Shown here: one piece after another, positions 27,546-49,487 of the stretch
Layout: each line of letters begins with the position of its first letter
Numbering within the stretch: the first letter of the stretch is position 1
Source of the DNA: Firmicutes bacterium HGW-Firmicutes-8
GTDB taxonomy: Bacteria > Bacillota > Thermincolia > Thermincolales > UBA2595
DNA length: 64,000 nt
NCBI GenBank assembly: GCA_002840165.1
Contig: PGZN01000001.1
Coordinates: 62,001-126,000 of the forward strand
Direction: 5' to 3'
Program-made: the position numbers and the translations under genes
Notes under the pieces: model-generated
Told to the model about the DNA's origin: nothing
Database searches by the model: none
The model's input: the letters and a program-made list of their open reading frames with translations, nothing else

Positions 27546-27582
27546 CGGCTTCCCTTTTCAATCCTGTTAAACAGGATCACTT
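27546..27582 (-). repeat. Truncated cobalamin-riboswitch 5' arm
   Basis: This stretch repeats the first part of the riboswitch at 23692-23730 almost exactly (22 identical bases, then one small difference, then 13 more), but diverges before the B12-box. It overlaps the stop of the ABC-2 permease gene. It is a riboswitch remnant or one arm of a duplication flanking the intervening importer operon. Confidence 0.75.
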
Positions 27583-28317
27583 GACTTTCCGTACTACTAT
27601 AACACCGGCAGCAAACAGAACCACAGAATAACCTAAGAACACCAGTAACGATACTGCAGGAAAATCATAACCCCATGCTATCGCCCGTAAAGACTGGCTG
27701 GCATGGGTTAAAGGCAGCAGTTCAATGAAATACCGGATAAACTCCGGAAGCTTCTCTGAAGAAAAGAAAGTACCACATAGAAAAGACATAGGTAAAATAA
27801 CAAAAGTAGAAAAGTTCGACATATCCTCATGAGAATCAATTGTCATAGCTGCCACAACCCCTAAAGAAGCAAACAGAAAACAGGTAAGTAAGATAATCAG
27901 GAAAAACCAGAAATTAACGGTTATTTTTGCCCCGAAGACGAAGGCCAATCCCAGAATAATTATGGAAGCCAATATCCCGCGCAGGCTGCCTGCCAGCACA
28001 TTGCCCAGAACTATGGAAAAAGCGCTGATGGGGGCAGTTAAATATTCTTCCAAGGTTTTATGGTAAAGCCTGCTCATGTTCAGGGAAGCGCCTACAGTAT
28101 TGAAGCTGGTATTCATGGCGCTTAAGGCAATAATCCCGGGTACCACAAACTGCAGGTAGTTACCGCCATTCATTTGGATGCTCCGTCCCAACCCCCAGCC
28201 AAAAGCCACCAGGTAAAGAAAAGGACTGACCATCCGGGAAACCAAAAACTTCTATAGTCTCCTTTTTAAGACTACCATTTCACGCCAGAAAACAATACAA
28301 AACCCTATTTTAATCAC
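27577..28317 (-). pseudogene. ABC-2 type permease interrupted by an in-frame TAG
   Basis: The frame begins at GTG 28317, overlapping the ATPase stop, and reads FWREMVVLKRRL, then TAG (28252-28254), then KFLVSRMVSPFLYLVAFGWG and on to a complete 222-residue membrane domain with six helices. Homologous permeases normally have a residue such as Tyr (RRLYKF) here, so a single base change explains the stop. The rest could be translated from TTG 28245, losing the N-terminal interface helix. It pairs with the DrrA-type ATPase. It may be a recent nonsense mutation, a sequence error, or read through. Confidence 0.7.
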
Positions 28318-29149
28318 CCACCTTACGTCCGGTCAGTTCAACAAAAACATCTTCCAGATTGGATTCCCGGATAATGACATTCTGCTTGAGACTCCTGGCG
28401 TACTTGACTGCCTGTTCCCGGTCAGCAAAAAATTTATATTTCGTACACCCCTGGTTGAGGGTTTCAACTACAACTTCCCCCACCCTTTTCTTCAATTCTT
28501 CCGGGGTACCCAGGGCAATTAACTGCCCTCGGTCCATAATACCTATCCGGTGGCACAGCATCTCGGATTCTTCTATATAATGGGTGGTTAAAAGGACGGT
28601 CATGCCGTCATTATTCATTCTTCTAATCAAATCCCAGATTCTTCGCCTGGTTTGGGGATCCAGCCCAACAGTCGGCTCGTCAAGAAATAATACATGTGGG
28701 TAATGCATCAAAGCCCTGGCGACCATTAACCGCCTTTTCATACCGCCGGATAACTTCCCAACCAGGTCACCTGCCCGGTCCCTGAGTTCGACATAGTCCA
28801 AAAGTTCTTGAATTCTCTTCCGGCGGTCATCTTTGGGCATTTTATGCAAACGCCCGTGGAGTTCCAGGTTTTCCCAGGTCGTCATCTCTATATCAAGGTT
28901 CATATACTGGGGAACAACGCCGATTTCTTTTTTAACCTTAAGTAAATCCCGGGTTATCTCATACCCGTTAATAAACGCTTTGCCGCCGGACGGTTTGGCC
29001 AGCATGGTGAGCATCCTGATCGTCGTGGTTTTCCCAGCCCCGTTGGGCCCTAAAAGGCCGAAAATCTCCCCTCCGCCCACATGAAGGTCAATCCCGTTAA
29101 CAGCCTTGATTTTCCCGTAATACTTAGTTAACTGATTAATTTTTATCAT
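28310..29149 (-). CDS. ABC-2 exporter ATPase, DrrA-like
   Basis: About 279 residues from the ATG with AGAGGTG upstream. Walker A GPNGAGKTT, signature LSGGMKRR, Walker B VLFLDEPTVGLD and a C-terminal domain typical of daunorubicin/multidrug exporters. It overlaps the permease GTG by 8 bp. It lies at the 3' end of the CobN2/ECF operon and could export a product or metal chelate. The substrate is unknown. Confidence 0.88.
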   Translation of the reverse strand: MIKINQLTKYYGKIKAVNGIDLHVGGGEIFGLLGPNGAGKTTTIRMLTMLAKPSGGKAFINGYEITRDLLKVKKEIGVVPQYMNLDIEMTTWENLELHGRLHKMPKDDRRKRIQELLDYVELRDRAGDLVGKLSGGMKRRLMVARALMHYPHVLFLDEPTVGLDPQTRRRIWDLIRRMNNDGMTVLLTTHYIEESEMLCHRIGIMDRGQLIALGTPEELKKRVGEVVVETLNQGCTKYKFFADREQAVKYARSLKQNVIIRESNLEDVFVELTGRKVGD

Positions 29150-29202
29150 GGCCGGCACCTCTGAAATCACTTCTCCAGTCCAATAACTTCACTAAATGAT
29201 AG

Positions 29203-30291: not shown

Positions 30292-30324
30292 ATTTATTTC
30301 CACCTTCCGATTATCAGTGATTAT

Positions 30325-32361
30325 TTACTCCCTACTCACTGCTCTGCCCACTGCCTGAACCAAGGTATCGGCTTTCAACTCATCAATTTTATGGTACTCT
30401 GCCCCAAGGCTGTGGGCTAATTCCCGGGCCAGCCCAAATGTAAGAAAACCTTTATTTTCTACGTCAATGACCAGGGACTTGATCCTTTCCTCTTCCTGGA
30501 TGATTTCAGCAGCCCGCAGCGCCTCTTTTAGGGGTTTATCTGAACCGATACTTACATTTCCTTTCCCGTCAGAGATAATTATCAGCAGGGGTGAAATATT
30601 GGGATCTTTCAGCAGTTGGGTCTTGGCAACCCCATAGGCTTTAGTTAATCCGGCAGATAAGGGCGTCTTCCCGCCGGTAGGCAGTTCCTCAAGAAGTTTA
30701 TGGGCCATCTCCACACTGTTAGTAGGTGGCAGTAACACTTCGGCTGTATTTCCTTTGAAGGCAATCATACCTATCCGGTCCCTTTTTTGGTAAGCATCAA
30801 GCAGTAAGGACAAGATAGCTCCCTTGGTCTCTACCATACGCTGCCGGGCCCCCATTGACCCACTGGCATCAACCACAAAAAGCAGGAAATTGCCGATGCG
30901 CTTTTCACGTACTTTTTCCCTGATGTCGGCAGTTTCAATGGCAATGGCTATCTGCTCGCGCCGCCGGTACACCTGGTAAGGGGCTGCCGCCCGCAGTGTG
31001 GCGTCAAAAGCCAGGTCGTCATTTTTTCTCTGCATAGTACTGCGGACGTACCGCCCTGCCTTTGAAGCGGTCTTGGTATGTGAGCGCCGCCCGGAGCCTT
31101 TCCGTAAAATCCGGTCCCGGTCATGAGTTATCCTCTTGACCTGAAACGGCTGACCGACGGCAAAAACGATTTCCTGCGGTACCGCGGGCGGAGAATTGCT
31201 TTGTTCCTGCTCATTCTGCTCCTGCTCATTCCATTCATCCTCCTGCTTCTCCGGCTCGGAATCTGCCTGTTCGGCAGGCGGCGCCTGTTCAGGTTCAGGC
31301 TCCTCCAGTGATTCCGGTTCTTCTTGTTGTTCCCCGGCAGGTTCGGAAGGTTCGGGAGGTTTGGGCTGTTCCGGCGGTGGCGGGGGCGCCTGCCGGATCC
31401 GGTGGAACATGACCATATCCGCGACTTCGTAAACATCCTGTTCCGTTACTTCCTCCCTCCCATGCCAGGCCGCAATCGTCCGGGCGGCTGCTTCCATAAT
31501 AATGTCGGCCCGGTGTCCGGCGACAAAACCTTCCAGACAAAGTTGGGTAATTAATTCAAGCAACCCCAAAGATATGGTTACTTTGGGCAGAAGTTGGCGC
31601 GCAACGGTTATCCTGTCCTTTACAGCCTGCTCTTCAACGGCCCACCGGGCAATAAAGCCCATGGGATCAGCATCAAAAGCCTCCCGCCGCTTGGCGATTT
31701 CTACCCGCTCCCCAGGGTCCCTGACCCCCTCCACTTCTATACATAGCCCGAAACGATCTATCAACTGGGGCCGCAAATCCCCTTCTTCAGGGTTCATAGT
31801 GCCAACAAGGATAAACTCTGCCGGATGGACATAGGAAACACTCTCCCTCTCCACTACATTTATCCCCATGGCAGCGGCATCTAAAAGCACATCCACAATA
31901 TGATCATCCAAGAGATTGACTTCATCTACATAGATGATCCCCCGGTTGGCCTGGGCCAGTAATCCCGGTTCGAACCGGCGCACCCCGTGTTTGATGGCAT
32001 GTTCAAAATCCAGGCTGCCTACTACCCGGTCTTCAGTGGCCGAGACCGGCAAATCAATAACCTGCACCTGCCGAGAGGTTCTCTCCAGCTTTTCCCCGGC
32101 TGCCAGCAGGGTCCGGCACTGTTCGCAAAGCCGGGAGATATCATTAGGGTCACAGTTAAACAGGCAGCCGGCGACTACCTCTGTTTCCGGCAGCAGCGCC
32201 GCCAGCGCCCGGACTGCGGTAGATTTGGCCGTGCCTTTTTCACCGCGTATCAGAATTCCCCCCAGCCGCGGGTTAATGGCATTTAATATCAGTCCTTTTT
32301 TCATCCTTTCCTGTCCGGCAATGGCCGGGAAGGGGTAAACAAGCCGCTGAAATTTATTCAT
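30325..32361 (-). CDS. ChlI-ChlD fusion: AAA+ and VWA chelatase subunit
   Basis: 678 residues: an AAA+ domain (1-320) with GEKGTAKST and [12 protein letters not shown] and the same Cys pattern as its neighbour; a Pro/Glu-rich acidic linker (about 325-400); and a von Willebrand A domain with MIDAS motif DASGSMG near residue 497 and TPLSAGL later. This is the ChlD/BchD architecture that links the ATPase ring to the porphyrin-binding large subunit. The start overlaps the CobN2 stop by 8 bp, and the RBS is GAAGGAAG. Partner of CobN2 by context. Confidence 0.9.
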
Positions 32362-35300
32362 TAATAATCTTCCTTCTAACTTCGTTAATGTTCATAATAT
32401 CAATTGCGCCGCCTTGGAACTCTCCTTCTACATCACCCATCAGTTCCTCCATCCAGCCTTCGATTTCCAAATATGCTTCCTGCAGACCCTCCAGCACTTC
32501 CTGGTCAGGATTCCACAATTGACGCCGGTGGGCTTCCAGCAGCCGGCGGCCGATTTCCTCCAATGCCCATGGGTTATGCTCGGCAAACCACTTTCTCATT
32601 TCTTCATCCAGGATATAAGTCTGGGTAATATCATCGAAAACCCAATCATCAACCTGCCGGGTAGTCGCCTCCCAGCCGTAAACCCGCCCAATCCGCTTGG
32701 CCATATCTCCGGCGCCCTTGTAACCGTGTTTTTTCATGCTCTCAATCCATTTGGGATTTAATAGCTTGGTCCGGGTTACGCGGGCAATTTCGTCTGACAG
32801 ATCAGAAACATGAACCCGGTTAGGGTCTCTGGTATCACCATAGTAAGACTTGACCCGGTGACCGGAAAAGGTTTCCGCCGCGGTAGTCAGACCACCCTGA
32901 TAGGCATACTGGCAGCAGCAGCCAAAGAGGTCATATTCATCCGTAGCCGTCTTGTTAAAAGTTAAATCCACACTGGCCAGCTGGTGAACCAGTTGGTCCT
33001 TAGCTTCTAAACCAAAAATACCTTTCCCATAGACGTAACCGCTCCATTCCACGAAGATGTCAGCCAAATCAGCCTCATTCTCCCAAGCGCTGGCGCTGAC
33101 CGCCAGGTTAACTCCGGTCCCATAGGTTCCCGGCCGCGACCCAAAAATACGGGCAGTGGCCGAACGATAGTCATCTGTGTCAGCAGCACCGGACAATTTT
33201 TCCAACAAAGCCAGGGTATGTTTACGGACATAGTTCATCTCCGGCGGCTCATCCAATTCAGCCACCAGGCAGACTGCTTCATCCAAAAGATCTATTAAAT
33301 TAGGGAAACAATCGCGAGTAATGCCACCGATACGGACAGTAATGTCAATCCTGGGACGCCCCAGTTCTTCCAGATTCAATACTTTCAAACCCTTTACCCG
33401 CCCATTTGGCCGCCATTCCGGCTCTACCCCCAGTAGGTAGAGAAGTTGAGCCACCTGTTCCCCTTCACTCCACATCATATCTGTAGCAAAAAGGATCATG
33501 CCGCAATTTTCGGGCAGTTGTCCCGCATCTGAAGTATACTTTTCCAAAAGCCCGTTGGCTAGGCTGCGCCCCACTCTCCAAGCCGCCCTGGTCGGAAGTT
33601 TATAGGGGTCCATAGCGTAGAAATTCCTTCCGGTGGGCAAAACATCCCACCGGCCCCTGCTGATTAGTCCGGCCGGTCCGCTTTCGATGTACCCGCCATT
33701 AAGACCGTTTAACAGCGCTTCAATTTCCGCACACTCATCTAAACGCCCGGCTATAACCCGGACCAGGTCTTTTTGGTATACCAGTTCTTCCAGGAACTCC
33801 GGGTATCTGATATCATCAGCCATCACCCGGCGGGCCAATTGAGAAATTTCCTCCAGACCCAGGTCTTCAGCAGCCAGAAAACCGGATATTAAACCCTTGG
33901 CATATTGCTGGACCCTAACTAGGACTTGACCATAGGTCATAGAATCAGCCCATTCTTTGCCTGGGTTATCCAGCGCACAATCCAGGTTTACCCCGAGCAA
34001 CCGGCAGATTACCCTCCGCAGAGAAGCATTCTCGCCATTCTCATAGCGTAGTAAGTGGGCAATAAAGTCACAGGCATCCTCGCCACGGGGAATGGTTCCG
34101 AATATGTGCATCCCTTTATGAATGCTGGATTCCTCCATTCGACTTAAAACTTCTGCGGTCTGTTCCACTACTTGTTTAAAACCGTGGTGTCCCTGTAAGC
34201 CAACCTCTTTGGCCAGGTTTAATTCCTGAATCTTATCAATAATTACATGCTCCAAGGCATGACTGCGGGCCGGGTCCAAATCCGCAAGCTGACAGTACTC
34301 TGTCAGGTAGTCCGCCAGTTCCCGCCAATCGCCATATAACTCACTTTCTGTCATGACAGCTTGTAAGTGGTCAATCAGCACCGCATAAGCCCGGCGTTTG
34401 GCCGTAGTGCCTTCAGGCGGATTATCCGCATTGTAAATATAAAAGTGAGGAAGAGAGCCAATAGCAAGGTCCGGGTAACAATCGTCAGAGAGACCCACCG
34501 ACTTGCCCGGTAAAAACTCCAAATTGCCATGAGTTCCGATATGAACAACGGCATCAGCGCCCCATATCTCTTCAAGAAACCGGTAGGTAGCTATGTACTG
34601 ATGAGTCGGTGGACAGGCCGGGTCATGAAGGATTTTACAAACAGCGCCATTACATTGGGCTCCTGCGCAACCTCGTTTGGGCTGTACACAAACCACCACC
34701 TGGCCAAAGTTTATCCCGGTCACAAGAATATTGTCCCGGTAAACCATCGGGGCCGATAACCCCTCCCGGGCTTCTCCCGGCGGCTGGCCCCAAGTCTTTA
34801 CCATCTGCGCCTGGACAGTGGGGCTGAACCGTTTAAACCATTCTCTGTATTGCTCCTTGCTTACAATCCCTAAAACCCCACCCCTGGTTACAATTTCTTC
34901 AATAGGTGTCCAACGAAAATCCGCAACAGCTTTTTTCTCCATGATAGTTTTTATGAGTTCCTGCCCGTCCTGGGGGATTCCCTGCACGTTATAACCCTTT
35001 TCGGCCAATGCCTCCATAATCTTCACCGTACTGGCCAGGGTATCCAGGTTGGCCCCGCCTCCCACCGAGGCTTCCAACCCGGCACATGGACTGTTATGCA
35101 AAATCAGCGCTATCTTTCGTTCAGCCGGCCGCTTACGTTTCAGTCTAACCCATTTCACCGCTCTTGTAACCGCATGTTCAATCCGTTCAGGTATTGGCGA
35201 ATAAGTTTCCATAGTGGCCCCGGTCCGCTGGTCTGCAAACCGTTGCTCAGCACCTACCACCATAGGTTCAATGATGCCGTCAAACTCCGGCATGGATACT

Positions 35301-36214
35301 GCCCAGACACTGCTCTCCGGCAGCCCGTGAATATCCTGCCGCCATTCTTCTTCAGTTTTGTAATAACTCATCAATGGGTGCAGGACAGGAATATTAAACT
35401 CCTTCAATACAGCCCGGCCTGCTTCCGGGTAACCTTCCTGCCGTTCTTCAGGCACACTGACTAAAAAGAAAGACTGTAAGTCAAGGAGAACATCAATCAA
35501 AACACGTTCATTGTCCTTGAAAAAATGGCGCATAACAGTGTCATTTCCCCAGCTACCCAGTTCAACGTCTTTGGAACCCTGGGAAAACACGGGAATAACC
35601 CGCAAATTAAGCCGCTCCAAGTGTTCAATCAGACAATTTACAACAGCCAGGTTGTTATTTATCCAGTGATTACGGTAAAACAACAGTCCTGCTGCAGGTT
35701 TGTCCGTATCTATACAACCATACCGCCAAAGACAATATTCAGCAGGGCTGCCAAATACATCCGGAGCATCAGGGTAATAAATACCCTGCCACGGGATTTC
35801 TACCGGGTCCTGAGCATCCAGCGGAAGACCGCCCACAACACCGCCCAGGTAACAGAGTAAGCCCTTGATATTTTCCGGACCGCCAATACTCAGGTACCTG
35901 TTGGCCTTGGCGGCTATATCCTTATTTACGGTGGTATAACTCCAAAAGGACGGGTCAAAACCCAGACTTAACACCGGTACCACCAAGCCAATTTCCGGTA
36001 AATGCAATTTTATTTCATCCCAGGCTTGACCCGTAGCCGGGACCTGCAAAAGCAAATCCGCTTCCATTCGGGCCATAGCTAGAAATTCCTCCCTGCTATC
36101 TCGGTCGCCCATATCACGCATAGACCGAATCTGTAAATCTAACCAGGGCAGTTCCGCACTGGCCTGACTAAAGGTCGGCAGCATATTTCCCCACATAATC
36201 GCGCAAATCTTCAT
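32354..36214 (-). CDS. cobN: CobN-like chelatase large subunit with cysteine cluster (CobN2)
   Basis: 1286 residues, CobN/BchH family: [14 protein letters not shown] near residue 558 and [16 protein letters not shown] near the C-terminus. Unlike CobN1 it has a cysteine cluster at about 515-535 (C-x4-C-x4-C-x7-C, including [12 protein letters not shown]), which could bind an Fe-S cluster or zinc. The cluster resembles what I recall from methanogen homologues. Directly followed by ChlI/ChlD-type subunits and preceded by an ECF importer and DUF3344 proteins. The probable reaction is ATP-dependent insertion of metal into, or its removal from, an imported tetrapyrrole. Confidence 0.9.
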
Positions 36215-36245
36215 TTCCCGGTTACTCCTTTTCTATTGTAATCCA

Positions 36246-37745
36246 CTATAATCCACAGTAAGCCAACCCATTCCGGGGTGTTCCCGAGAAAATCACCCGG
36301 CCTTGCTCCAGGACAATAACCCTGTCAGCATACCCGGTGATAACATCCCAGTCATGGCTGATCATAAGAATACCGGTTCCCCGCTGTCTGAGTTCTGCAA
36401 GCAGATTCATCATTTCCTGCAAATGACCCCAATCCTGGCCAGTAGACGGTTCGTCCAGAACCAAAAGCTTAGGCTGCAGAGCCAGAACAGCAGCCAGAGC
36501 CACCCGCTGCCGCTGACCCCTGCTGACTGCCTGCGGGTGCCGGCCTGACAATTGGGCCAAACCTAAACTGTTTAGCAGCCAAATGATGACTTCACCTGCT
36601 TCCGTCAACTTGAAATTTTGCAAACCAAACCGCACTTCCTTTTCAATAGTAGCGCAAAATAACTGGTTGTCCGGATTTTGAAACAACAGCCCTACTTCCT
36701 GAGCCAGTTCCACTGTTCGTAATTGACTTAATTCCCTGTCCCGGATTAAAATCCGGCCTTTCCGGGGTTGATAAAGGCCAGCCAGCAAGTAAGCCAGGGT
36801 TGACTTGCCTGCCCCATTGCTTCCGGCTACAGCCAGGAATTCTCCGGCTTTTAACTCCAGACTTACGCCGTTCAAAGCCTGTCGCCCGTTTTTATAAGTA
36901 AAACTAACATTATCCACATTCAAAACCGCTTTACCAGTGTTCCGGCCTGTTTCCACATGACAAACAGGCTCCGGCGTCCCCTCCCGGACATGGTTCTCCT
37001 CCATAGTACCGGGAACTTTGAGGCCAAGACTCCGGATAACTTGGCTCTTTTCCCCTAATATCCTCTGGGGTAAATCGTCCAAAACAATCTTACCTTCATT
37101 CATAATCACCAGCCGGTTAGCCATGGGTCCAACTGCTGCCAGATCATGTTCAACAACAATAATAGTTGTTTTCAGGTCTGCCTGGAGTTTTTTCAACAGC
37201 CCGGCAACTGTTCTTTTGCCTGCCGGATCCAGGTCTGATGTAGGTTCATCAAAAACCAGCACCTGTGGCTGCATGGCCAGGACAGAAGCTATAGCCACCC
37301 TTTGTTTTTGACCGCCTGATAATTCACCAAGAAAGCTATCGGCCAAATCTTGGATACTTACAGCAATAAGGGCCGCTTCTACCCGCTCCCTGATGATATC
37401 CGGTGAAAATCCCAGGTTTTCTAAACCAAAAGCCACCTCGTCCCGCACAGTCAGGGTAAAGAATTGAGCCTCAGGATTCTGGAGCAGTGTACCAACCTTT
37501 AATGATAAGCGATGTACCGGCACTTCCGCTACCGGCTGCCCCGCAACAATCACCTGGCCCTCCGCCCGGCCGGTCAGCAGATGTGGAATAATCCCATTTA
37601 AACAATTTAACAAAGTGGTTTTGCCGCACCCTGACCTGCCTGCAATTACCACAAACTCTCCGGCAGAAATCTGGAAATTAATCCGGTCCAAACTGGGCTT
37701 ATTTTGGCCTGAATACCAAAAAGAAAAGTTTTCTATTTTAATCAT
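36246..37745 (-). CDS. ECF transporter ATPase, two fused ABC domains (second system)
   Basis: About 499 residues with two nucleotide-binding domains: Walker A GRSGCGKTT and GSNGAGKST, signatures LSGGQKQR and VSRGQRQR, Walker B VLVFDEPTSDLD and LLVLDEPSTGQD. The ATG overlaps the stop of the membrane-protein gene (TAATG), so the longer in-frame start is not used. It energises the second ECF module with EcfT2 (39923-40774). The second signature has Val-Ser-Arg in place of Leu-Ser-Gly, a mild deviation. Confidence 0.9.
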   Translation of the reverse strand: MIKIENFSFWYSGQNKPSLDRINFQISAGEFVVIAGRSGCGKTTLLNCLNGIIPHLLTGRAEGQVIVAGQPVAEVPVHRLSLKVGTLLQNPEAQFFTLTVRDEVAFGLENLGFSPDIIRERVEAALIAVSIQDLADSFLGELSGGQKQRVAIASVLAMQPQVLVFDEPTSDLDPAGKRTVAGLLKKLQADLKTTIIVVEHDLAAVGPMANRLVIMNEGKIVLDDLPQRILGEKSQVIRSLGLKVPGTMEENHVREGTPEPVCHVETGRNTGKAVLNVDNVSFTYKNGRQALNGVSLELKAGEFLAVAGSNGAGKSTLAYLLAGLYQPRKGRILIRDRELSQLRTVELAQEVGLLFQNPDNQLFCATIEKEVRFGLQNFKLTEAGEVIIWLLNSLGLAQLSGRHPQAVSRGQRQRVALAAVLALQPKLLVLDEPSTGQDWGHLQEMMNLLAELRQRGTGILMISHDWDVITGYADRVIVLEQGRVIFSGTPRNGLAYCGL

Positions 37746-39885: not shown

Positions 39886-39922
39886 CACTTTTCCTCCCAT
39901 CCTCTATTGTTAGATGTATGGC

Positions 39923-40774
39923 TCAACTGAAAAAAATCTCCTGGCACCATATAGCGCCAATAGATAGTGTAAAAACATAAAACAGGAAATAATAGTCAGG
40001 CCGGCCTAACCTTAATTCCCGTATAAAGGTTCGGTCCGGCAACGCCCGGAATGCCCGTAAGTCAGCAGCCACAGCCATTTGTCTGCTGTTACGTAATATC
40101 CCCACCATGACCGGGAAAAAGAGATACCGAAAGGTTTTTAATTTGTTTATCAGCCCGCCCTGCCAGGAAACCCCGCGAACCTTCAAAGCTGTCATAGTAA
40201 CAGTAATGTTCTGCACCAGAAAAGGTATAAAATTCAGTCCGGTAGTTACCATGAAAGCTATTTCATAAGGGAGTCCCACTGTCACCGTTTTTTTACCCAC
40301 TCTGAACTCAACTAACTTGACCAGCGCCAGTATAAACTCACTGGGGTGAGTACTGCCTGCCACAATAAGCGCTGCCCCCATGGTAGATAACAAACGCAGG
40401 GACTGGACTGCTCCATGAATAATTCCTTCTTTATAAATATATACGCCCCCGGTGATTCTGCCGATTAGAGGACAATCTTCCGGAATCAGAACCAACCAGG
40501 GCGCTTTGGCCCAGTAATAAAACAATGCCTGGGAAATCATAAAACTCAAGGTCAGGGAAGCAAATACCATCAGCACTTTTTTCAATTTGTCTTTGTCCGG
40601 TTTAAGAAGCAGCCAAAAGGGCCATGTTGAAATGAACAGTATCAAAAGTAAATAAGGCTCACGCAAGGCCACAGCCAGAAAGGCCAGGACAATCATCCAC
40701 AGCAGCTTAGCCCGCGCATCCAGCCGGTTCAATATTCCTTTATGAGCGCTGCTCTTGCTCAGAAAAAACTGCAT
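39923..40774 (-). CDS. ecfT: ECF transporter coupling subunit EcfT (second system)
   Basis: 283 residues with membrane helices and the two EcfT cytoplasmic motifs, KVRGVSWQGG near residue 193 and DLRAFRALPD near residue 235. The family's Ala-Arg-Gly/Ala pattern is slightly altered. RBS TAGGAGA. Located between the DUF2149 and DUF3344 genes, upstream of the S-like protein and double EcfA. Confidence 0.85.
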   Translation of the reverse strand: MQFFLSKSSAHKGILNRLDARAKLLWMIVLAFLAVALREPYLLLILFISTWPFWLLLKPDKDKLKKVLMVFASLTLSFMISQALFYYWAKAPWLVLIPEDCPLIGRITGGVYIYKEGIIHGAVQSLRLLSTMGAALIVAGSTHPSEFILALVKLVEFRVGKKTVTVGLPYEIAFMVTTGLNFIPFLVQNITVTMTALKVRGVSWQGGLINKLKTFRYLFFPVMVGILRNSRQMAVAADLRAFRALPDRTFIRELRLGRPDYYFLFYVFTLSIGAIWCQEIFFS

Positions 40775-40794
40775 AATCTATCTCCTAATACCTG

Positions 40795-41136
40795 TTAGTT
40801 ACCTGTAGAATTAGGTACAAATACCGTACTCCCGTTTTCCAACCGGTAGATTGAACCCAATTCAGTACCCCGGCCTTCACCGATCTGGCCGCTGGCCTTA
40901 AACCGTTCAATCTGCTGTCCCTTCTTATGGATTATTTCCATATTGCTCTGTCCGGGGTTTTTTACTACAAAGGTTTCTTTAGAAGAACTGAAGAATTCGG
41001 CCATGCCTACTGCATTTAACGACAGCATGGCAAAGGCCACCGCCAAAACCAGTCCTGCCTCAAATAAGTTGGCCATACCGTCTAGCGGGTCTCCATGGCG
41101 GTCAGGTATTCTTCTTCCTTTCCTTCTCTTGTACAT
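40795..41136 (-). CDS. DUF2149 membrane protein (ExbD/MotB-like partner)
   Basis: 113 residues, with a short basic N-terminus, a DPLDGMANLFEAGLVLAVAF membrane segment (about 17-36) and a small extracellular domain. DUF2149 proteins are found next to MotA/TolQ/ExbB-type channels and CobN-like proteins in methanogens and in Bacteroidetes heme operons (from memory). Probably the stator partner of the overlapping ExbB-like gene, coupling ion flow to work at the surface. Overlaps that gene by 55 bp; RBS GGGAGGG. Confidence 0.78.
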   Translation of the reverse strand: MYKRRKGRRIPDRHGDPLDGMANLFEAGLVLAVAFAMLSLNAVGMAEFFSSSKETFVVKNPGQSNMEIIHKKGQQIERFKASGQIGEGRGTELGSIYRLENGSTVFVPNSTGN

Positions 41137-41789
41137 ATTTGTCCCTCCCCCTGACGATTATACTGAATCAGAATGGTAATCAGATACTCCAAATCACTGA
41201 GGTCTTGACTCTGCATACTGTCTTTGAAAAGATTGACGGCATACCCAAAACCTCCGATAAGCAAACCGATTACAGTAGTTACAAAGGCTATTGTAAGATT
41301 GTTAGCCAGTGTTTGCAGGTCACCCTTGGTCAAAGCTTGCAGGGCAGGTCCCAGCGGTATTAGGGTACCCATCAGTCCCAGCATCGGCCCAACTCTGGTC
41401 AATACCCGTGGACCCTGGAGCTGGCGGGATGACATAATCTCCGCTGTCTGCATGATTTTTTCAGATTTAAGATGAAAAGTACCGTCAACCAGAGCCTGAC
41501 GGCTAAGATTAATGGCTTCTCTGAGCAGGTTACTGTACTTAATATCCGGCAAAGCTTGTGCCGCATCATCCCAATTATTATCTTGCATATATCGGCCAGC
41601 CTGAAAGACGTTCTCTTCGAACTTAGCGAAATCACGGTAAAAACGCCGTCCAACCACTTCAAAGAGAAACCCGCCAAATTCCATCAGGACATAAACTAAA
41701 GCCAATATTTCCACAATCATTACGGGATAGAAAAGGTTGGTGGCTATTACATATAACAGGTGTTCTATCTCCTTACCATACGAAAGCAT
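41082..41789 (-). CDS. MotA/TolQ/ExbB-type proton-channel protein
   Basis: 235 residues with three hydrophobic segments (about 10-40, 130-160, 170-195) and the family core RVGPMLGLMGTLIPLGPAL and a NNLTIAFVTTVIGLL helix. RBS AGGAGG. It would form an ion-driven motor with the DUF2149 protein. A Gram-positive cell has no outer membrane for a TonB system to serve, so what it drives here is unclear: perhaps movement of the wall-bound DUF3344 proteins or an assist to CobN. Confidence 0.85.
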   Translation of the reverse strand: MLSYGKEIEHLLYVIATNLFYPVMIVEILALVYVLMEFGGFLFEVVGRRFYRDFAKFEENVFQAGRYMQDNNWDDAAQALPDIKYSNLLREAINLSRQALVDGTFHLKSEKIMQTAEIMSSRQLQGPRVLTRVGPMLGLMGTLIPLGPALQALTKGDLQTLANNLTIAFVTTVIGLLIGGFGYAVNLFKDSMQSQDLSDLEYLITILIQYNRQGEGQICTREGKEEEYLTAMETR

Positions 41790-43372
41790 ATTGTCCTCCT
41801 ATCAAGTTTCCGGCAGTTTATCAACTTTGCCCGCTCAGTCCAAAAGCCAGCCGTTAAAGCCATCAGCATGGTAGTTAACATTAAGATAGCCCCCCGGTTG
41901 TCGGTCGGGGTTAAACCCTTTGGTCCGGTGAGGTTTTCGGCCCCGGTCCTGACCAATACCTTGCCTCTGACCAGGCCGTCTCCAGGGAAATCAATTTTAA
42001 TCCCAAGTTGTTTTAGCTTTTCCTCTGACCCGGGAGCTTTTTTCTCCGGTTCACCCGGTGTCTTTTTTTTATTTTGATCAAGCTGATCCTTCGCGGCAGA
42101 TTGAATACCGGTAACATTGTCCACATTTTCCGTTTGTCCGGAAGGCGGGTCGGATTTTCCTCCTGTCCCCTGAGCAGTCTTCAGCCTGGTCAAGAGTACG
42201 GCCCCACTGGGCACCATGTAGTCACCCAGGTCCCGGAAGCCTACTTCATTTTTTCCTCCTTTTATAGCCCTGGTGACATCCTGGATATTGTAGCTGAAAT
42301 CAGGATAAGGGTTGCCGGTCCAAAGTCCCTGGTAAATTCCCTTGTTGAAAATAAGCATATTCTGCCCTTTGTCCCCTGAGGGTACCAGGTTTATAAGAGT
42401 AGCCGTTTCTACTTCTTCCGGGTCAGGAACCTGGTCGAAATATGTCCAGGTAGTAGCCTCTTCGGCAGTAGCAAAGCTGTCCGGCCGGGCCATCAAAATA
42501 TCACAACCCTCATTAATCCAATACTTCAGCGGAGCCTTTTCGCTCATACTGTCCTCATAGATAATCAATAAGCCAATACCGTTAACGCAAAAAAAGTTTT
42601 CCGGGTGCCTGTTTTTTACCTCAGCAACATATGGTCCCTTGCCCGCAACCAACTTGGTAACATCATAAGTCCAGGTGCCGCTGGGGTAATCAAACTTACC
42701 CCAGCCTTTACGGTCGCTATACTGGCGGTCAGGTATCAATGGCTGGTTATCAAGACTCAATACCATCTGGGGATCGACTCCCATTTGTCCCCAATGACTC
42801 CATGTCCAGAAAGTAAAAAGGCGGGCCTGCTTAACAACAGCGCCGGCAGGCAGTTCAGGCAGAAAACGGACAGAGTAAACATCACTCTGCTTGATTTGCC
42901 CGCTGTACCGGCTGTCGCCAAGGGTAAAAATGAAATCACCCCTGGCTGCCTCACCGGAAGTAAAGGGCAGTAAACTACTGCTTCCTGCATTGCCATTGAT
43001 AATTGCAGTTCGTTCCTCTACCTCTTCTTGCAGTATCCTGGTTATATCCTGATCATCGGCCAACACCGCCCTGATTTCATGCTTGGTTAATCCTTCCGCC
43101 CGCCAGGAGAACTGATAAACTGATTGATTACCCTCGGCCAGTTGTTTTGCGCTCAGCAACTCCTGATCCGCATATAACGCCAGATACTTGCCGGCGTATC
43201 TTTCTTCGCTTCCGTATACTTTGACCGTAATGTTATTCGCGGAATTGGTAAACACATATTCCGGAACCTCCATTTTTAGGCCCAACGACTCTTCAGCCGC
43301 AGCCGCCAGAGGCAGCAGCAGGAAAATCCCTAAAACGGTTATCAGGCATGTTAATTTTATATTAGAGCTCAT
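41765..43372 (-). CDS. Membrane-anchored DUF3344 protein with N-terminal beta domain
   Basis: About 535 residues from the ATG with GGAGAAAT upstream. Signal peptide (1-26), a beta-sandwich domain (30-110), DUF3344 (about 130-405; GDFIFTLGDSRYSG, LKYWINEGCDIL, RDLGDYMVPSGAVLL), a charged linker, and a C-terminal helix. Its DUF3344 resembles the first and third copies in the 1524-residue protein. It overlaps the ExbB-like gene by 25 bp. It likely displays a ligand-binding domain just outside the membrane. Confidence 0.75.
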   Translation of the reverse strand: MSSNIKLTCLITVLGIFLLLPLAAAAEESLGLKMEVPEYVFTNSANNITVKVYGSEERYAGKYLALYADQELLSAKQLAEGNQSVYQFSWRAEGLTKHEIRAVLADDQDITRILQEEVEERTAIINGNAGSSSLLPFTSGEAARGDFIFTLGDSRYSGQIKQSDVYSVRFLPELPAGAVVKQARLFTFWTWSHWGQMGVDPQMVLSLDNQPLIPDRQYSDRKGWGKFDYPSGTWTYDVTKLVAGKGPYVAEVKNRHPENFFCVNGIGLLIIYEDSMSEKAPLKYWINEGCDILMARPDSFATAEEATTWTYFDQVPDPEEVETATLINLVPSGDKGQNMLIFNKGIYQGLWTGNPYPDFSYNIQDVTRAIKGGKNEVGFRDLGDYMVPSGAVLLTRLKTAQGTGGKSDPPSGQTENVDNVTGIQSAAKDQLDQNKKKTPGEPEKKAPGSEEKLKQLGIKIDFPGDGLVRGKVLVRTGAENLTGPKGLTPTDNRGAILMLTTMLMALTAGFWTERAKLINCRKLDRRTICFRMVRR

Positions 43373-43405
43373 TATATTTCTCCACATATTTGCTCTATCC
43401 GGCAA

Positions 43406-44878
43406 TTAATCTTTGAAATCCAACAGTTTTTTGACCATAACTACAGCCTGGGCTCTGGTTGCCGGCTCTAACGGACCGAACAGCCCCGGTTTAATTCCCT
43501 TTACGAATCCCTTTTTTGCCGCCATGGCTGCATAAGGTTTGGCCCAAACGGCAACTTTGTCTCTGTCCTGAAAATTTAACACCGTATTGACCTCGGTTTC
43601 CCCTAACTGGCGCACATCCTTTTCCAGACCTGCAGCCCGCACCAGCATAACCGTCATTTCCTGGCGGGTTACAGCCAGATCAGGGTTAAACTTGCCATTG
43701 CTCCCGGAAACAAGCCCGTTGGCAGCGGCAGTCTCAACAAATCTGTAACTCCAGTGACCGGACGGCACATCCCCAAAGGTGGACTTGCCGCTGTCTATCG
43801 GAGTCAGCTTCAGAGCATTGACTAGCAATACCGAAAACTGCGCCCTGGTAATCAAGCCGTCAGGGAGGAATTCTTGACCGTTAATGCCTTTAATAATCCC
43901 CGCCCGGGTAAATTCCTCAATGACAAGCCTGGCCCAATGATTCTCAATATCAGTAAAACCTGTCCCCTGTTGAACCGGTGTGGACTCTTGGGTTTTAGCC
44001 CCGGTGCGCAGGATTACCAGCACGGGATGAAGATAAGTATCGTCACCCCGGTCAAAAGTCAATTGGTTATCGCGAGCAGCCAATTTACCGGTAACATCGC
44101 GGAGGTCAAAGTCAAAGTAGTCCTCCCATTTTTCACCGGCCAGGCTCTGTCCCCCACCGTCAGCAGCATCAACAGCCAGAAGCTGCCCATTTAAGAACAA
44201 TTTATCCTGGTCGCCTTTGTTGCCGGCGACATAAACCGTAGTCAAGTCCGCCCGTTCAACATCATCCACGGCTACACTGCCCGGTAAAGTTAAGGTAGCG
44301 GTATTCAATGGTGTTTTGTAGTTTAAACCCACGTTTCCTTCGGCAATCCAATAACTTACTTCCGGCCGGTTGGCTTGTTCCAGGGCAGCTACCAATACCG
44401 CACCATACAGCCGGCCGTCAAAATTACCGGATACTGATTTGGTAGTCAAATCCACCCTGTTGACAGAAGCTTCTTTCACCTCTTTGGAAACATCACAGGC
44501 CACCCAGTAAGTTCCGCAGGTTGCGCCGTAAACCTCAGCCCCACCGGTTGCCACGGCTTTACCGAGCTTCACTGCCGCCAATTCAGTATTGTTAAACTTC
44601 GTCGTCAACTCACCTTCGTTATCACTGTTACCTCCCCAGACACCTACATATAAGCGCGCCCACTTAACCTTTCCGGAAGGAACCTGAAATAAGCGGAAAT
44701 AGGGAGAAGGCCCAAGGCCTTTTCCCCCATCCACAAAAAGTTCCCCTTTGATTGTTTCACTACGGATTACCTGTAAAGGCTGTCCGTCAAAATTATAATC
44801 GGCCCAGGCAACTGCAGTACCGCCAAGCATGACCAGGAAAGCCATGATGATAATTATTTTTTTGTTTTTGCAGAACAA
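43406..44878 (-). CDS. DUF3344 surface protein with three SLH repeats
   Basis: About 490 residues from a TTG preceded by AAGGGGG. Signal peptide, one DUF3344 domain (about 27-300; LFVDGGKGLG, WARLYVGVWGG, FDRGDDTYLHPVL), then three SLH repeats (305-490). The DUF3344 is about three quarters identical by eye to the middle copy in the next protein upstream, indicating recent duplication or gene conversion. The SLH repeats hold it in the S-layer. Confidence 0.8.
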   Translation of the reverse strand: MFCKNKKIIIIMAFLVMLGGTAVAWADYNFDGQPLQVIRSETIKGELFVDGGKGLGPSPYFRLFQVPSGKVKWARLYVGVWGGNSDNEGELTTKFNNTELAAVKLGKAVATGGAEVYGATCGTYWVACDVSKEVKEASVNRVDLTTKSVSGNFDGRLYGAVLVAALEQANRPEVSYWIAEGNVGLNYKTPLNTATLTLPGSVAVDDVERADLTTVYVAGNKGDQDKLFLNGQLLAVDAADGGGQSLAGEKWEDYFDFDLRDVTGKLAARDNQLTFDRGDDTYLHPVLVILRTGAKTQESTPVQQGTGFTDIENHWARLVIEEFTRAGIIKGINGQEFLPDGLITRAQFSVLLVNALKLTPIDSGKSTFGDVPSGHWSYRFVETAAANGLVSGSNGKFNPDLAVTRQEMTVMLVRAAGLEKDVRQLGETEVNTVLNFQDRDKVAVWAKPYAAMAAKKGFVKGIKPGLFGPLEPATRAQAVVMVKKLLDFKD

Positions 44879-44912
44879 ATTGGATCCCCCTTTTTGTCCA
44901 GACGTTATCTGT

Positions 44913-47900
44913 CTAGATTTTATCTTCGAATTCAAGTATGCGGGTAATTAAAGCTGCCGCCTGAGCCCTGCTGGTTGGCGCTTTGGGAAGAAGCTGATTC
45001 GCATTGACCCCTTTGACCAGTCCTTGTCCGACTGCCACGGCGACATACCTTTTGGCCCAATCAGCAACATTATCCTCGTCCCCGAAATTGAGCGCCTGGT
45101 TAATGCCCTCAGGGTTAAGATTTTCCGCCTCTTTATTCAGGCTGGTGGCTCTCACTAACAAAACCATCATTTCTTCACGACTGATGGTGTCATCCGGCCG
45201 GAAAGAAACCCCATCACCTTTTATTAATCCGGCTTGGGCTGCCGCCTCAATATATTCATAAGCCCAGTGAGTAGATTTCACATCAGCAAACTCCACTTTT
45301 TCAGCATCAGCCGCCTGGGGTATCCCCAGCGCTTTGGTAAGCAGAACGGTAAACTCGGCCCGGGTTACTTTTTGCTCCGGAGCATAATGCTGGCTGTCCC
45401 GGCCCTGCACAATACCCCTGCTCAGCAGAATTTCAATATTTTCCTTTGCCCAGTGGCTGCTTATGTCATCAAATGTTTTGTTACTCATTACGACAGCATA
45501 AATGCCGTATTTTTCTATGGGTACAGTAATGGTATTAGCAGATAAATCAGCTTTGCCACCCAGGTTATACCATGTCGTCCCATCATTAAAGTATACCGTA
45601 AGTTTATTGGGGTTTTTTCCCTGAATCTGCTGTGCATCATATTTGAAACAACCGCTGAGTTTTTCTTTTGGTGTTACTGTACCGGTAAATTCATATATTT
45701 CCAACAGTGTTTGCAAGTCTTCCTGAATTACAATCGTTGTATTATCTAATTGGTCCACTTGAATTTTGGCCTCTTCCGGAAAACTCCCCTGAGGAATCAC
45801 CAATTCCACAGCTCCGTTAAATGCTGTAACATTGGCAGCATTTTTCTGTATCGTTATATTTTCGGTACGAACTACCTGAATAATTAGAGGAGCAGCTACT
45901 CCGGGGATGCTAATTGACGTTCCTGAACTGCCGTCCGTTTTATAAGTCACAACTAAAAAGGCATTAGAAGGAACCATATAATCGCCATTATCCCTAATGG
46001 CAATATTATTACCACCGGAGTCTACCGTCACTTCCCTTTCGTCCACCGTGAGTCCATCTTTGGTATTATACACCCCGCTTTTCCAATTGGCGCCATTAAA
46101 AGAAATCTCATTTAATCCCTTATCCCCTCCTGAAACCACCGTGATCAACCTGGCTTTTGCCACTTTAGCAGTATCAATTGTTCCTGTAAAATCCGTTGTA
46201 GTAGTCGCCTCCGAGGAAGTAACCGGGTCTGTGGCAAAGATTATATCGGCGCCTTCATTCAGCCAGTATTCAAAGGATTTCCCGTTGGGATCACTATAAA
46301 CTATTACCAACCCAATCCCGTATATACTGATTTCATTTGGTCCGTTATTGGTCAGGACCGCGCGATAAGTTCCGTTTCCGGAAATTTTACCGGTAGCATT
46401 AAAAGAGATTGTACCGCTTGGGTAGTTATAGGGGTCAATTCCTTTGGTATCGGAATAACTCGTGATTTGCGAAACACTATTGTTGTTTAAAGTCATTTTA
46501 ACCTGCGCCGGTTTTCCACTTTTACTCCAGGCATAATAAGCATACAACCGGGCAGTCTTGATGCTGGCTCCGGCCGGAATTCCGGTAACATTGTAGTTAA
46601 CGGTATATGTGCCTCCACTTTTTATTGCGCCCAGGTAACTGCTATCCCCTATTGTGAAAAATAAATCTCCTTTATCCTTTTCATGTAAGGCATTCTCCAA
46701 CGGGTTGGTTCCTTTATAACCGCTCGGTACCGGAGTACCAGTTCCAGTGGAATCTTTTTTATAAACATATTCCGAAATACTCAACTCGTTGTTCGCCGTA
46801 TTGCTTTCCTGATATACATTTGACACCACCGTTTTCAATTGTACGGCGCCCGTTACTGCCGACCTGTATGTAAACAAAACATCGGTAGAGGAACCTTTGG
46901 CTAAGTCAGTTATTGATTTAGAATCCACCAAGCTGTTTCCTGCCCAAAAGCCAACGTCAAACTGACCGGAATTTCCCGTGCCCCGATTCTTAACCTGAAC
47001 GTTTATGCGATTGTCCTGATCTTTATAAATAGTGCCATCCACTGCAGAAATGGCAATAGGAACCAGGTCAGGAATACCGTTAGGATTACCCCCGGTCGTA
47101 TCATCGCCAGCTTGTATACGCAAAATTGTCAGGACAGGGTGCAGATAAGTATCATCACCTCGATCAAAGGTCAGTTGATTGTCCTGAACAGCCAACTTAT
47201 CTTTAACATCACGAGAGTCAAGGTCGAAGTAGTTGTCATCCCACTTATCACCGGTCGGGCTTTCTCCCCCGCCATCGGCAGCATCAACTGCCAAGAGTTG
47301 GCCGTTAAACAATAATTTATCCTGATCGCCTTTATTTCCGGCGAGATAAACAGTCGTTAAGCCGGCCAGTTCAACTTCACTCAGGGTGACACTGCCCGGT
47401 AAAGTTAAAGTAAAACTATTCAGCGGGGTTATATAGTTTAGACCTGCGTTCCCCTCTGCAACCCAGCAGCTTACTTTTGGACCATTGACTTGTTCCAAAG
47501 CTGCAACCAGTACCGTCCCATACAACCGGCCGTCAAAATTCCCCGTTACTAATTTCGTTGTTAATTCCACCTGGTTGGTGGAAGCTGTTTTTATCTCATT
47601 AGCTACATCTACACTTACCCAATAGGCTCCGCTCGTTGCGCCATAAACCCTCGCTCCGCCCTCTGCTACTTCTTTGCCTATGCTTACCGGAGCCAATTCA
47701 ACATCGTTGAATTTTACGGTCAATTCACCTTCATTACTGCTGTTGCCGCCCCAAATCCCTACATATAACCGGGCCCATTTAACATGACCGTCAGGAACCT
47801 GAAATGAACGGGAATAAGGAGAATTACCCAGTCCGTGTCCACCATCCACAAAAAGTTGTCCATTGAAGGTTTCATTGCTCACAACCTGCAAGGGATACCC

Positions 47901-49487
47901 ATCAAAATTATAACTTGGAACCGTTGCACTTTTTTCATAAACCATTTCAGAAACAGTCAACTCATTGTTTTCTGTGTTGCTTTCCTGATTAACATTTGAA
48001 ACCACTGCTTTCAACTGAATTGCTCCAGATACAGTTGGTTTAAATTTGAATATGACATCGGCAGAAGAACCATAGATTAAATCATTTACCGACTTAGATT
48101 CCACAAGGCTGGCGCCAGCCCATAAGCCTACGTCAAAAGACCCGGAATTGGCTGTGCCATGGTTCTCTACCTGTACTTTAACCGGATTGTCAAAATCTTT
48201 ATATAGCTTGCCATCCACCGGAATAATAGCTGTGGGCACGATATCAGGCGCGCCATTTACCGGACCGGCTCCGTCATCTGTTTTATAAGTCACCACCAAA
48301 AAAGCATTGGAAGGAACCATGTAGTCACCATTGTCCCTAATGGCAAAATTATTGTCGCCGGGGCGGACCGTTACTTCCCGTTCATCCACCACAGGCTTAT
48401 TTTTTGTATTGTAAACCCCGTTTTCCCAATTACCGTCATTGAATGAAACCGCATTTAATCCCTTGTCCCCTCCGGGAACCACAGATATCAGCTCAGCCTT
48501 TTCCACTTTAGCCGTATCTATTGCGCCTGGAAAAACCGTTGTGGTAGTCGCCTCCTCAGAAGTAATGGGAGCAGTGGCGGATGAAATTATATCTGCTCCG
48601 TCATTCAGCCAGTATTCAATGGATTTTCCGTTCGGGTCGCTGTATACGATTACCAAACCAATCCCGTACATGCTGATTGTATTTGTCCCGCAATTCGTCA
48701 AAACTGCTGTATAACTGCCATTACCGCTTATTTTATCTGTAGCATCAAAAGATATTGTCCCGCTTGGGTAGTTGTATGGGTTCATTCCTTTGGTATCAGA
48801 ATAACTGTTGATTTGCGTGACACTGTTGTTGTTTAAAGTCATGGCGGCCTGCGCTGCCTGGCCGCTTTTGCTCCAGCTGTAGTAAGCATACAACCGGGCT
48901 GTCTTGATGCTGGCTCCGGCCGGGATGCCATATACATTGTAGTTTACGGTATATGTGCTGCCCACGTTTACTGTGCCAGTGTAAAGGCTGTCCCCGATGG
49001 TGTAAATCAAGTCTCCCTTATCCGTTCCATGGACCGTATTTTCCAAAGGGTTCGTCCCTTTATAGCCGGTTGGACTGTCATATACAGTCACCGAAACAGT
49101 CATTTCATTATTATCTGTGGCGCTTTCCAGGGCTACATTTGACACAACTGCCTTCAGCTGGACCACTCCGGGCGCTGCCGGTTTATATGTGAACAGAATA
49201 TCAGCGGAAGCGTCATAGACTAAATCACTTACCTGCTTTGTTTCCACAAGGCTGTCGCCCGCATATAAGGATACATCAAATGGACCGGAATTGCCTGTAT
49301 CCCGGTTCTCAACCCGGACATTAATTAAACTGTCTTTATCTTTATAAACCGAACCGTTTACTACGGTAATAGCTGCAGGTACGATATCCGGCGCGCCATC
49401 CTCAGCATAGGCAATAAAATTAATTGGAACAGTTGATAAACACATTAAAATAACCAGAAGTATACTGATTGCTTTTTTCTTCAACAT
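44913..49487 (-). CDS. Giant S-layer protein: three CARDB-like and three DUF3344 domains plus SLH
   Basis: 1524 residues from the ATG with AGAGG upstream. Signal peptide; CARDB-like Ig domain (about 30-135); DUF3344 type A (140-410); CARDB-like (418-525); DUF3344 type B (530-795); CARDB-like (805-910); DUF3344 type C, closely related to A (930-1205); a beta-sandwich (1215-1320); three SLH repeats (1325-1520). The alternation of spacer and DUF3344 domains makes an extended multi-ligand surface arm. First gene of the large chelatase/ECF operon, preceded by two attenuator-like hairpins. The ligand is unknown; a tetrapyrrole or metal complex is inferred. Confidence 0.8.
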   Translation of the reverse strand: MLKKKAISILLVILMCLSTVPINFIAYAEDGAPDIVPAAITVVNGSVYKDKDSLINVRVENRDTGNSGPFDVSLYAGDSLVETKQVSDLVYDASADILFTYKPAAPGVVQLKAVVSNVALESATDNNEMTVSVTVYDSPTGYKGTNPLENTVHGTDKGDLIYTIGDSLYTGTVNVGSTYTVNYNVYGIPAGASIKTARLYAYYSWSKSGQAAQAAMTLNNNSVTQINSYSDTKGMNPYNYPSGTISFDATDKISGNGSYTAVLTNCGTNTISMYGIGLVIVYSDPNGKSIEYWLNDGADIISSATAPITSEEATTTTVFPGAIDTAKVEKAELISVVPGGDKGLNAVSFNDGNWENGVYNTKNKPVVDEREVTVRPGDNNFAIRDNGDYMVPSNAFLVVTYKTDDGAGPVNGAPDIVPTAIIPVDGKLYKDFDNPVKVQVENHGTANSGSFDVGLWAGASLVESKSVNDLIYGSSADVIFKFKPTVSGAIQLKAVVSNVNQESNTENNELTVSEMVYEKSATVPSYNFDGYPLQVVSNETFNGQLFVDGGHGLGNSPYSRSFQVPDGHVKWARLYVGIWGGNSSNEGELTVKFNDVELAPVSIGKEVAEGGARVYGATSGAYWVSVDVANEIKTASTNQVELTTKLVTGNFDGRLYGTVLVAALEQVNGPKVSCWVAEGNAGLNYITPLNSFTLTLPGSVTLSEVELAGLTTVYLAGNKGDQDKLLFNGQLLAVDAADGGGESPTGDKWDDNYFDLDSRDVKDKLAVQDNQLTFDRGDDTYLHPVLTILRIQAGDDTTGGNPNGIPDLVPIAISAVDGTIYKDQDNRINVQVKNRGTGNSGQFDVGFWAGNSLVDSKSITDLAKGSSTDVLFTYRSAVTGAVQLKTVVSNVYQESNTANNELSISEYVYKKDSTGTGTPVPSGYKGTNPLENALHEKDKGDLFFTIGDSSYLGAIKSGGTYTVNYNVTGIPAGASIKTARLYAYYAWSKSGKPAQVKMTLNNNSVSQITSYSDTKGIDPYNYPSGTISFNATGKISGNGTYRAVLTNNGPNEISIYGIGLVIVYSDPNGKSFEYWLNEGADIIFATDPVTSSEATTTTDFTGTIDTAKVAKARLITVVSGGDKGLNEISFNGANWKSGVYNTKDGLTVDEREVTVDSGGNNIAIRDNGDYMVPSNAFLVVTYKTDGSSGTSISIPGVAAPLIIQVVRTENITIQKNAANVTAFNGAVELVIPQGSFPEEAKIQVDQLDNTTIVIQEDLQTLLEIYEFTGTVTPKEKLSGCFKYDAQQIQGKNPNKLTVYFNDGTTWYNLGGKADLSANTITVPIEKYGIYAVVMSNKTFDDISSHWAKENIEILLSRGIVQGRDSQHYAPEQKVTRAEFTVLLTKALGIPQAADAEKVEFADVKSTHWAYEYIEAAAQAGLIKGDGVSFRPDDTISREEMMVLLVRATSLNKEAENLNPEGINQALNFGDEDNVADWAKRYVAVAVGQGLVKGVNANQLLPKAPTSRAQAAALITRILEFEDKI
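45930..46740 (-). repeat. Internal duplication copy 2 (DUF3344 type C)
   Basis: DNA closely resembling 48270-49070 in the same gene, encoding the third DUF3344 copy. Long identical runs are visible, for example around the FLVVTYKTD and ARLYAYY coding segments. It marks a tandem domain duplication and is a potential recombination site. Confidence 0.7.
48270..49070 (-). repeat. Internal duplication copy 1 (DUF3344 type A)
   Basis: Partner of 45930-46740; it encodes the first DUF3344 domain. Confidence 0.7.

Follow-up and report, generated by a model that had tools for sequence, protein, structure and literature searches.

A 22-kb locus of 14 genes, here termed locus A, lies at 27577-49493 of the window analysed, a stretch of 64,000 nucleotides from Firmicutes bacterium HGW-Firmicutes-8 (assembly GCA_002840165.1, contig PGZN01000001.1, positions 62,001 to 126,000). 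The genes are all on the minus strand and mostly overlap; they encode four DUF3344 proteins, ExbB, DUF2149, a complete energy-coupling factor (ECF) importer, the chelatase proteins CobN, ChlI-ChlD (ChlID) and ChlI, and an ABC-2 exporter pair (Table 1). Gene content, topology by hydropathy, a mosaic origin, a leader shared with other operons and archaeal conservation of the surface/ECF module are established for this locus. The operon is tentatively explained as a surface-to-cytosol route by which a metallo-tetrapyrrole would be captured, imported and (de)metallated, with expression most likely as part of the nickel supply of the cell.

In such a route, SLH- and membrane-anchored DUF3344 jelly-rolls would catch the ligand outside the cell, and an ion-driven ExbB/DUF2149 motor would act on the C-terminal helix of the 546-aa DUF3344 protein, thereby moving or releasing the cargo. 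The ECF complex, whose S subunit has its own extracellular domain, would import the cargo; cytosolic CobN-ChlI-ChlD would then take out or put in a metal using ATP, and the ABC-2 pair would export the leftover. Capture by DUF3344, the motor partner, the direction of the chelatase reaction, the tetrapyrrole and the nickel are the elements of this scheme that we infer.

Composition of the locus and its archaeal counterparts

The named parts were checked by Pfam and topology was read from hydropathy. The gene families that an earlier, sequence-only reading of this stretch had placed here were all recovered as Pfam matches on the minus strand. Overlaps between adjacent listed frames reach 73 bases, gaps between them are no longer than 64 bases, and internal promoter and terminator pattern matches are about as frequent as expected from shuffling, making a single transcript plausible.

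Table 1. Features of locus A and its leader, in 5' to 3' order of the minus strand (window positions)
Position	Strand	Feature	Evidence
49494-49793	-	Promoter and leader common to sister locus and Nik-type operons; CAATATC/GATATTG hairpin at 49691-49713	
49603-49661	-	Strong intrinsic-terminator-like hairpin in 5' leader	-23.3 kcal/mol
44913-49493	-	1526-aa secreted protein: three DUF3344 (A, B, A subtype), three CARDB, three SLH	Pfam
43406-44935	-	509-aa DUF3344 (B subtype) with three SLH	Pfam
41765-43405	-	546-aa DUF3344 (A subtype), signal-like N terminus and C-terminal membrane helix; proposed ExbB/DUF2149 motor partner	
41082-41789	-	ExbB/MotA-like channel protein	MotA_ExbB PF01618, 37.6 bits
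40795-41136	-	DUF2149, one membrane helix; ANLFE in place of conserved ANLFD	DUF2149, 88.9 bits
39923-40774	-	EcfT (CbiQ family)	CbiQ, 69.9 bits; 45% identical to Methanosarcina
38842-39900	-	352-aa DUF3344 (B subtype), C-terminal membrane helix; adjoins EcfT and S in archaea too	
37745-38875	-	ECF S component behind extracellular Ig-like domain (fusion)	Pfam and model
36246-37817	-	Fused EcfA-EcfA' ATPases, two ABC_tran domains	Pfam
32354-36214	-	Cytoplasmic CobN/ChlH-type chelatase subunit	CobN, 1284.8 bits
30325-32361	-	ChlI-ChlD (AAA and VWA)	'putative cobaltochelatase' TIGR02442, 832 bits
29203-30303	-	ChlI-type AAA protein, His-rich tail, 96% identical to sister locus	Pfam
28310-29170	-	ABC ATPase of ABC-2 exporter	Pfam
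27577-28317	-	ABC-2 permease, in-frame TAG at 28252-28254 in this assembly	Pfam

The four DUF3344 proteins contain six such domains by Pfam, which alignment splits into A and B subtypes. SLH anchoring, as proposed in the sequence-only reading, applies to two of the proteins, whereas the other two are anchored by a membrane helix. The model of an A domain is all-beta (pLDDT 94.7), and DUF3344 as modelled is a double beta jelly-roll whose fold matches name no ligand. Searches for DUF3344 by sequence against solved structures and on plasmids returned no match. To our knowledge, no function has been assigned to DUF3344, archaeal DUF2149 or DUF2162. That DUF3344 proteins are adhesins or glycan binders of a fibrillar adhesin cluster, with merely incidental transport neighbours, is very improbable: a screen for fibrillar adhesins recovered the family, whose function was ambiguous (PMC9210967), and its fold lies near PNGase F, BcsB and GH86 structures and is combined with CARDB and SLH stalks, yet the membrane-anchored DUF3344 adjoins EcfT and S in both the bacterium and archaea, and DUF3344 genes stand with ExbB/DUF2149 in several lineages.

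The importer includes EcfT, two ATPases and an S-component fold, consistent with the ECF importer named in the sequence-only reading. The Pfam score of the S component is marginal (PF09819, 26.7 bits against a cut-off of 25.2) and is backed by an AlphaFold2 model (pLDDT 76.8), in which an Ig-like ectodomain is joined to a membrane part matching the ECF S component 5edl (TM 0.68 by target length), presumably the thiamine-related YkoE. By sequence, no match to solved S components was found. Kin of the S component were dropped as a guide to the ligand, being uninformative, with a single small-vitamin-type fold match and molybdenum-cofactor (Moco) riboswitches nearby. As a separate observation, short Bacillota S-component relatives close to Moco riboswitches (L157, L162) suggest an uncharacterised ECF substrate.

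Among 250 genomes of this phylum that were sampled, DUF3344 occurs in one. When 84,980 species were scanned with two DUF3344 patterns, every one of the 58 loci recovered was from an archaeal record, for the most part from Methanosarcinales, ANME-1, ANME-2 and kin. The archaeal loci join DUF3344 with CbiQ, fused EcfA, an S component with ectodomain and a short membrane DUF3344 (L007, L015, L017, L021, L029, L031, L037, L038 and, in part, L035), and the surface/ECF module of locus A matches those of Methanosarcina and ANME at 37-46% identity. This joint recurrence argues that the surface/ECF grouping is beyond chance. CobN and/or ChlID adjoin archaeal DUF3344 in L012, L014, L021 and L040 (ChlID in L014 and L021). 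The co-occurrence of families that the sequence-only reading had proposed to check was thus borne out within archaeal loci, but not for DUF3344 and DUF2149 counted by genome (Fisher p = 0.17), as DUF2149 is present in 84 of 120 genomes; the DUF3344-DUF2149 link is one of physical adjacency in a subset of loci.

The locus is a recent mosaic. Its surface/ECF proteins are closest to archaeal ones (DUF3344 37-44%, ExbB 40%, EcfT 45%, S about 40%), while their kin within the fetched stretches of the contig itself are weaker or absent. The chelatase and exporter proteins are closest to those of the neighbouring sister locus B on that contig (CobN 60%, ChlID 83%, ChlI 96%, ABC 89%, permease 91%). Most simply, these identities would reflect the joining of a capture/ECF module of archaeal type to a resident chelatase-exporter cassette that had been duplicated recently.

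Chelatase, motor and related loci on the contig

With a large CobN/ChlH-type subunit, ChlI and ChlD, the class I (ATP-dependent) chelatase set of locus A is complete. This chelatase makes a tetrapyrrole the likely ligand, and nickel is the leading candidate for the metal, for which the leader evidence is given below.

The locus CobN has neither an N-terminal hydrophobic segment nor a C-terminal helix, and ChlI and ChlD are adjacent. By a simple hydropathy test, both features are likewise absent from all five CobN genes that lie beside ChlI/ChlD, including one at window 54-3821 whose ChlI/ChlD are just past the window edge. In loci defined by ExbB/DUF2149, by contrast, 29 of 30 CobN genes have an N-terminal hydrophobic segment and 23 of the 30 have a C-terminal helix as well, several of those lacking the full pair being truncated frames. 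Two kinds of CobN are separable by topology and partners, an exported kind with ExbB/DUF2149 and a cytosolic kind with ChlI/ChlD. In a CobN tree, some rows of which show compositional bias and long branches, the CobN of loci A and B and the cytosolic CobN of two archaeal DUF3344 loci form one clade (support 100/100), apart from exported CobN and from riboswitch-controlled CobN; the latter is at most 37% identical to any row of the tree.

ExbB of the locus shares 40% identity with its archaeal counterparts in exported-CobN loci. Among the large neighbours of ExbB/DUF2149 on the same strand, 28 of 30 combine a signal with a C-terminal helix, compared with 24 of 90 other large genes of the same loci, and where CobN is absent the neighbour is DUF3344 or a CARDB giant in several ANME-type genomes (L119, L147, L149, L151). 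The 546-aa DUF3344 protein, directly upstream of ExbB and with a signal-like segment and C-terminal helix, fits this pattern. Because the CobN is cytoplasmic and the neighbours of ExbB/DUF2149 are signal/C-terminal-helix proteins, the motor most likely serves the 546-aa protein rather than CobN, judging from sequence features. The ANLFD motif of DUF2149 resembles the carboxylate of ExbD/TolR/MotB. Archaeal giants of 2200-3000 aa with a C-terminal helix beside ExbB and DUF2149, and with no CobN, were seen in six loci (L119, L147, L149, L151, L120, L062).

A more general proposal, which is unlikely as it stands, is that single-membrane cells possess a new class of energised uptake, in which ExbB/DUF2149 pulls type-I surface proteins and a bulky metallo-tetrapyrrole is thereby passed to ECF and a cytosolic dechelatase. 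The pulled proteins may be exported CobN in one branch and DUF3344 or giant CARDB proteins in another; neighbouring archaea could possibly supply the cargo, as nickel F430 or a nickel porphyrin.

At least four related loci (A-D) lie on the contig. Locus B encodes a copper-amine-oxidase-N/beta-propeller protein, an S-like component with ectodomain, EcfT, EcfA, CobN, ChlID, ChlI, an SLH protein, ABC and ABC-2. In locus C, a cobalamin riboswitch at 12086-12269 of the window is followed by alpha-toroid/DUF4430/SLH, BtuF-, BtuC- and BtuD-like proteins, a radical SAM protein and CobN and, past the window edge, by ChlID, ABC, ABC-2, ChlI, a nitrilase-type protein and CbiZ. A second cobalamin riboswitch (23561-23746) precedes toroid/SLH proteins, another ECF importer and CobO. 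Locus D consists of a cobalamin riboswitch, DUF2162, ExbB, DUF2149 and a 1688-aa exported CobN. Three different capture/import modules on the contig are each followed by the chelatase-exporter cassette. One of these loci is controlled by a cobalamin riboswitch and has CbiZ at its end, which ties the cassette to ring cofactors.

These neighbours bear on a corrinoid system as an unlikely alternative, in which cobamides or metal-free corrinoids would be imported and CobN-ChlI-ChlD would insert or remove cobalt. The riboswitch operons of the same contig, with transcobalamin-like SLH proteins, another CobN, CobO and CbiZ, are consistent with it, and the chelatase subunits score as cobaltochelatase; locus A itself, however, has no Rfam riboswitch and instead has a leader common to Nik-type operons, and its CobN falls outside the clade of riboswitch-controlled CobN. 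As observations on the neighbouring loci, the SLH-anchored alpha-toroid proteins downstream of cobalamin riboswitches (window 8886-11954, 18797-21577 and 21607-23304; two with DUF4430) are reminiscent of animal transcobalamin/intrinsic factor, and locus D (L067:9953-17459, contig C50 about 19953-27459), with its riboswitch directly upstream, resembles an hmu-like motor/chelatase unit that is apparently B12-regulated, unlike the heme role in Bacteroidota.

A leader common to Nik-type operons

The leader of locus A aligns with that of locus B over 112 bases at 86% identity (E 1.6e-31) and with that of a Nik-type operon (E 2.4e-29). Its hairpin motif occurs exactly four times in the 2.65 Mb genome, always on the same contig and strand, and in none of 249 other genomes sampled. 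Three copies precede locus A, the sister locus and the Nik-type operon, and the fourth is followed by a DUF4198 gene and by a second Nik/Opp-type operon. In the first Nik-type operon, NikB and NikC score above curated nickel cut-offs and the binding protein scores below. Both Nik-type operons have a DUF4198 gene, as does the stretch immediately upstream of locus A, and these copies show no obvious signal peptide; a characterised member of this family binds nickel with a Kd of 18 nM (PMC12537917). In the archaeal locus L015, only 375 bases separate NikR from a DUF3344 gene. A distance of 10 kb or less from DUF3344 applies to 3 of 24 archaeal NikR genes (0.5 expected, P = 0.013) and to 2 of 11 nicotianamine synthase genes (0.22 expected, P = 0.02), by post hoc tests. 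A Methanoperedens plasmid carries NikR, DUF3344 and EcfT/EcfA genes together (PMC9674854). Taken at the sequence level, locus A looks like a member of a nickel regulon, and the common leader favours nickel over heme, the first ligand named in the sequence-only reading.

Rfam searches found no family, and no cobalamin riboswitch, over the 5' region of the locus including the leader, and no family in the archaeal loci. The leader copies lie at 38081, 55102, 111691 and 122191 of contig C50 (the last two at window 49691 and 60191), and the leader, with its hairpin and attenuator-like terminators, could be a new regulatory RNA or a protein target. Between locus A and an FmdE gene, a plus-strand frame of 85 aa with its own terminator (window 49928-50185) is probably a genuine small gene. 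FmdE-family genes repeatedly adjoin Nik-type and CobN loci (window 50341-51643, L067:17943-19070, L070:325-942).

The same evidence would also fit an importer of metal ions or metallophores, bringing in nickel or cobalt on a small chelator for CobN to metallate a ring made in the cell. The Nik-linked leader, DUF4198 and the archaeal NikR and nicotianamine synthase neighbours are in line with this, but it is quite unlikely: loci B and C put the same cassette behind different importers, and the riboswitch marks C as corrinoid uptake, so that processing of an imported ring fits better.

Several points weigh against capture and import of a nickel tetrapyrrole. The archaeal proximity tests on NikR and nicotianamine synthase are post hoc and small, the synthase result representing one syntenic lineage. 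The leader copies could stem from duplication, and the second Nik-type operon falls under the nickel cut-offs. The fold matches of DUF3344 are weak (TM at most 0.32; PNGase F-like and BcsB-like jelly-rolls, some of them glycan-related). DUF2149 of the locus has Glu in place of the conserved Asp as motor carboxylate at the helix start. The closest solved relative of the S component is of the small-vitamin type, and distant Bacillota relatives of it lie near Moco riboswitches. The ABC-2 permease, whose true frame starts near 28317, has its stop codon where the frame of the sister gene (L068) is open; sequencing error and decay are indistinguishable as its cause. Nickel-tetrapyrrole uptake by a bacterium was not found described in the literature searched, nor was the whole machine from surface DUF3344 to chelatase.

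Comparison with known systems

The Bacteroidota hmu system (HmuYRSTUV, with the heme dechelatase HmuS) likewise has an ExbB-like protein, DUF2149 and a CobN-superfamily protein in one operon. HmuS is membrane-bound and works without ChlI/ChlD, and hmu includes a TonB-dependent receptor. In locus A, by contrast, a cytosolic CobN is accompanied by ChlI/ChlD, an ECF complex is the importer, and nothing points to an outer membrane. No TonB-dependent receptor was found among the operon genes, and no Omp85 in the 91%-complete assembly, which supports the earlier claim of an uptake and chelatase system in a monoderm cell; with the SLH proteins, this suggests a Bacillota-type host. Membership in the hmu family was rejected because two of its defining features were not found: the CobN is neither exported nor membrane-bound and adjoins ChlI/ChlD, and neither a receptor in the operon nor a sign of an outer membrane was seen. 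The analogy that the sequence-only reading had drawn with the hmu core does not hold for CobN, since ExbB/DUF2149-linked CobN is of the exported or membrane-bound kind; other parts of the locus may work like hmu.

Heme iron scavenging as in hmu is highly improbable. The combination of ExbB and DUF2149 with a CobN homologue in hmu speaks for it (PMC10434189; PMC12583661), but the locus CobN is of the cytosolic, ChlI/ChlD-dependent kind rather than the membrane-bound, NADH-dependent HmuS kind, and the exported CobN of this genome lies behind a cobalamin riboswitch. The role of archaeal CobN homologues was posed as an open question with the description of HmuS (PMC12583661). The present analysis places an exported-CobN/ExbB/DUF2149 operon under a cobalamin riboswitch and a cytosolic-CobN/DUF3344 operon in an apparent nickel regulon. 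If the motor model is true, TonB-like energised uptake would be possible without an outer membrane.

The methanogen DUF2162-ExbB-DUF2149-exported CobN cluster, to which locus D belongs by type, has ExbB/DUF2149 of about 40% identity in the same pair order. It has no DUF3344 or ECF genes and its CobN is exported, whereas locus A lacks DUF2162 and has a DUF3344 membrane protein in front of ExbB. The vitamin B12 transporter ECF-CbrT has the same ECF architecture (T, A, A' and S), but the S component of locus A differs in its extracellular domain and matches no solved S component by sequence. The closest likeness in parts is to the Methanosarcina/ANME DUF3344-ECF loci and the Methanoperedens plasmid region, with EcfT, fused EcfA, S with ectodomain and DUF3344 at 37-46% identity. 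In Methanosarcina/ANME, ExbB/DUF2149 are usually elsewhere in the genome and genes lie on both strands, whereas locus A is one-directional, SLH-anchored and joined to a chelatase cassette of bacterial paralogues.

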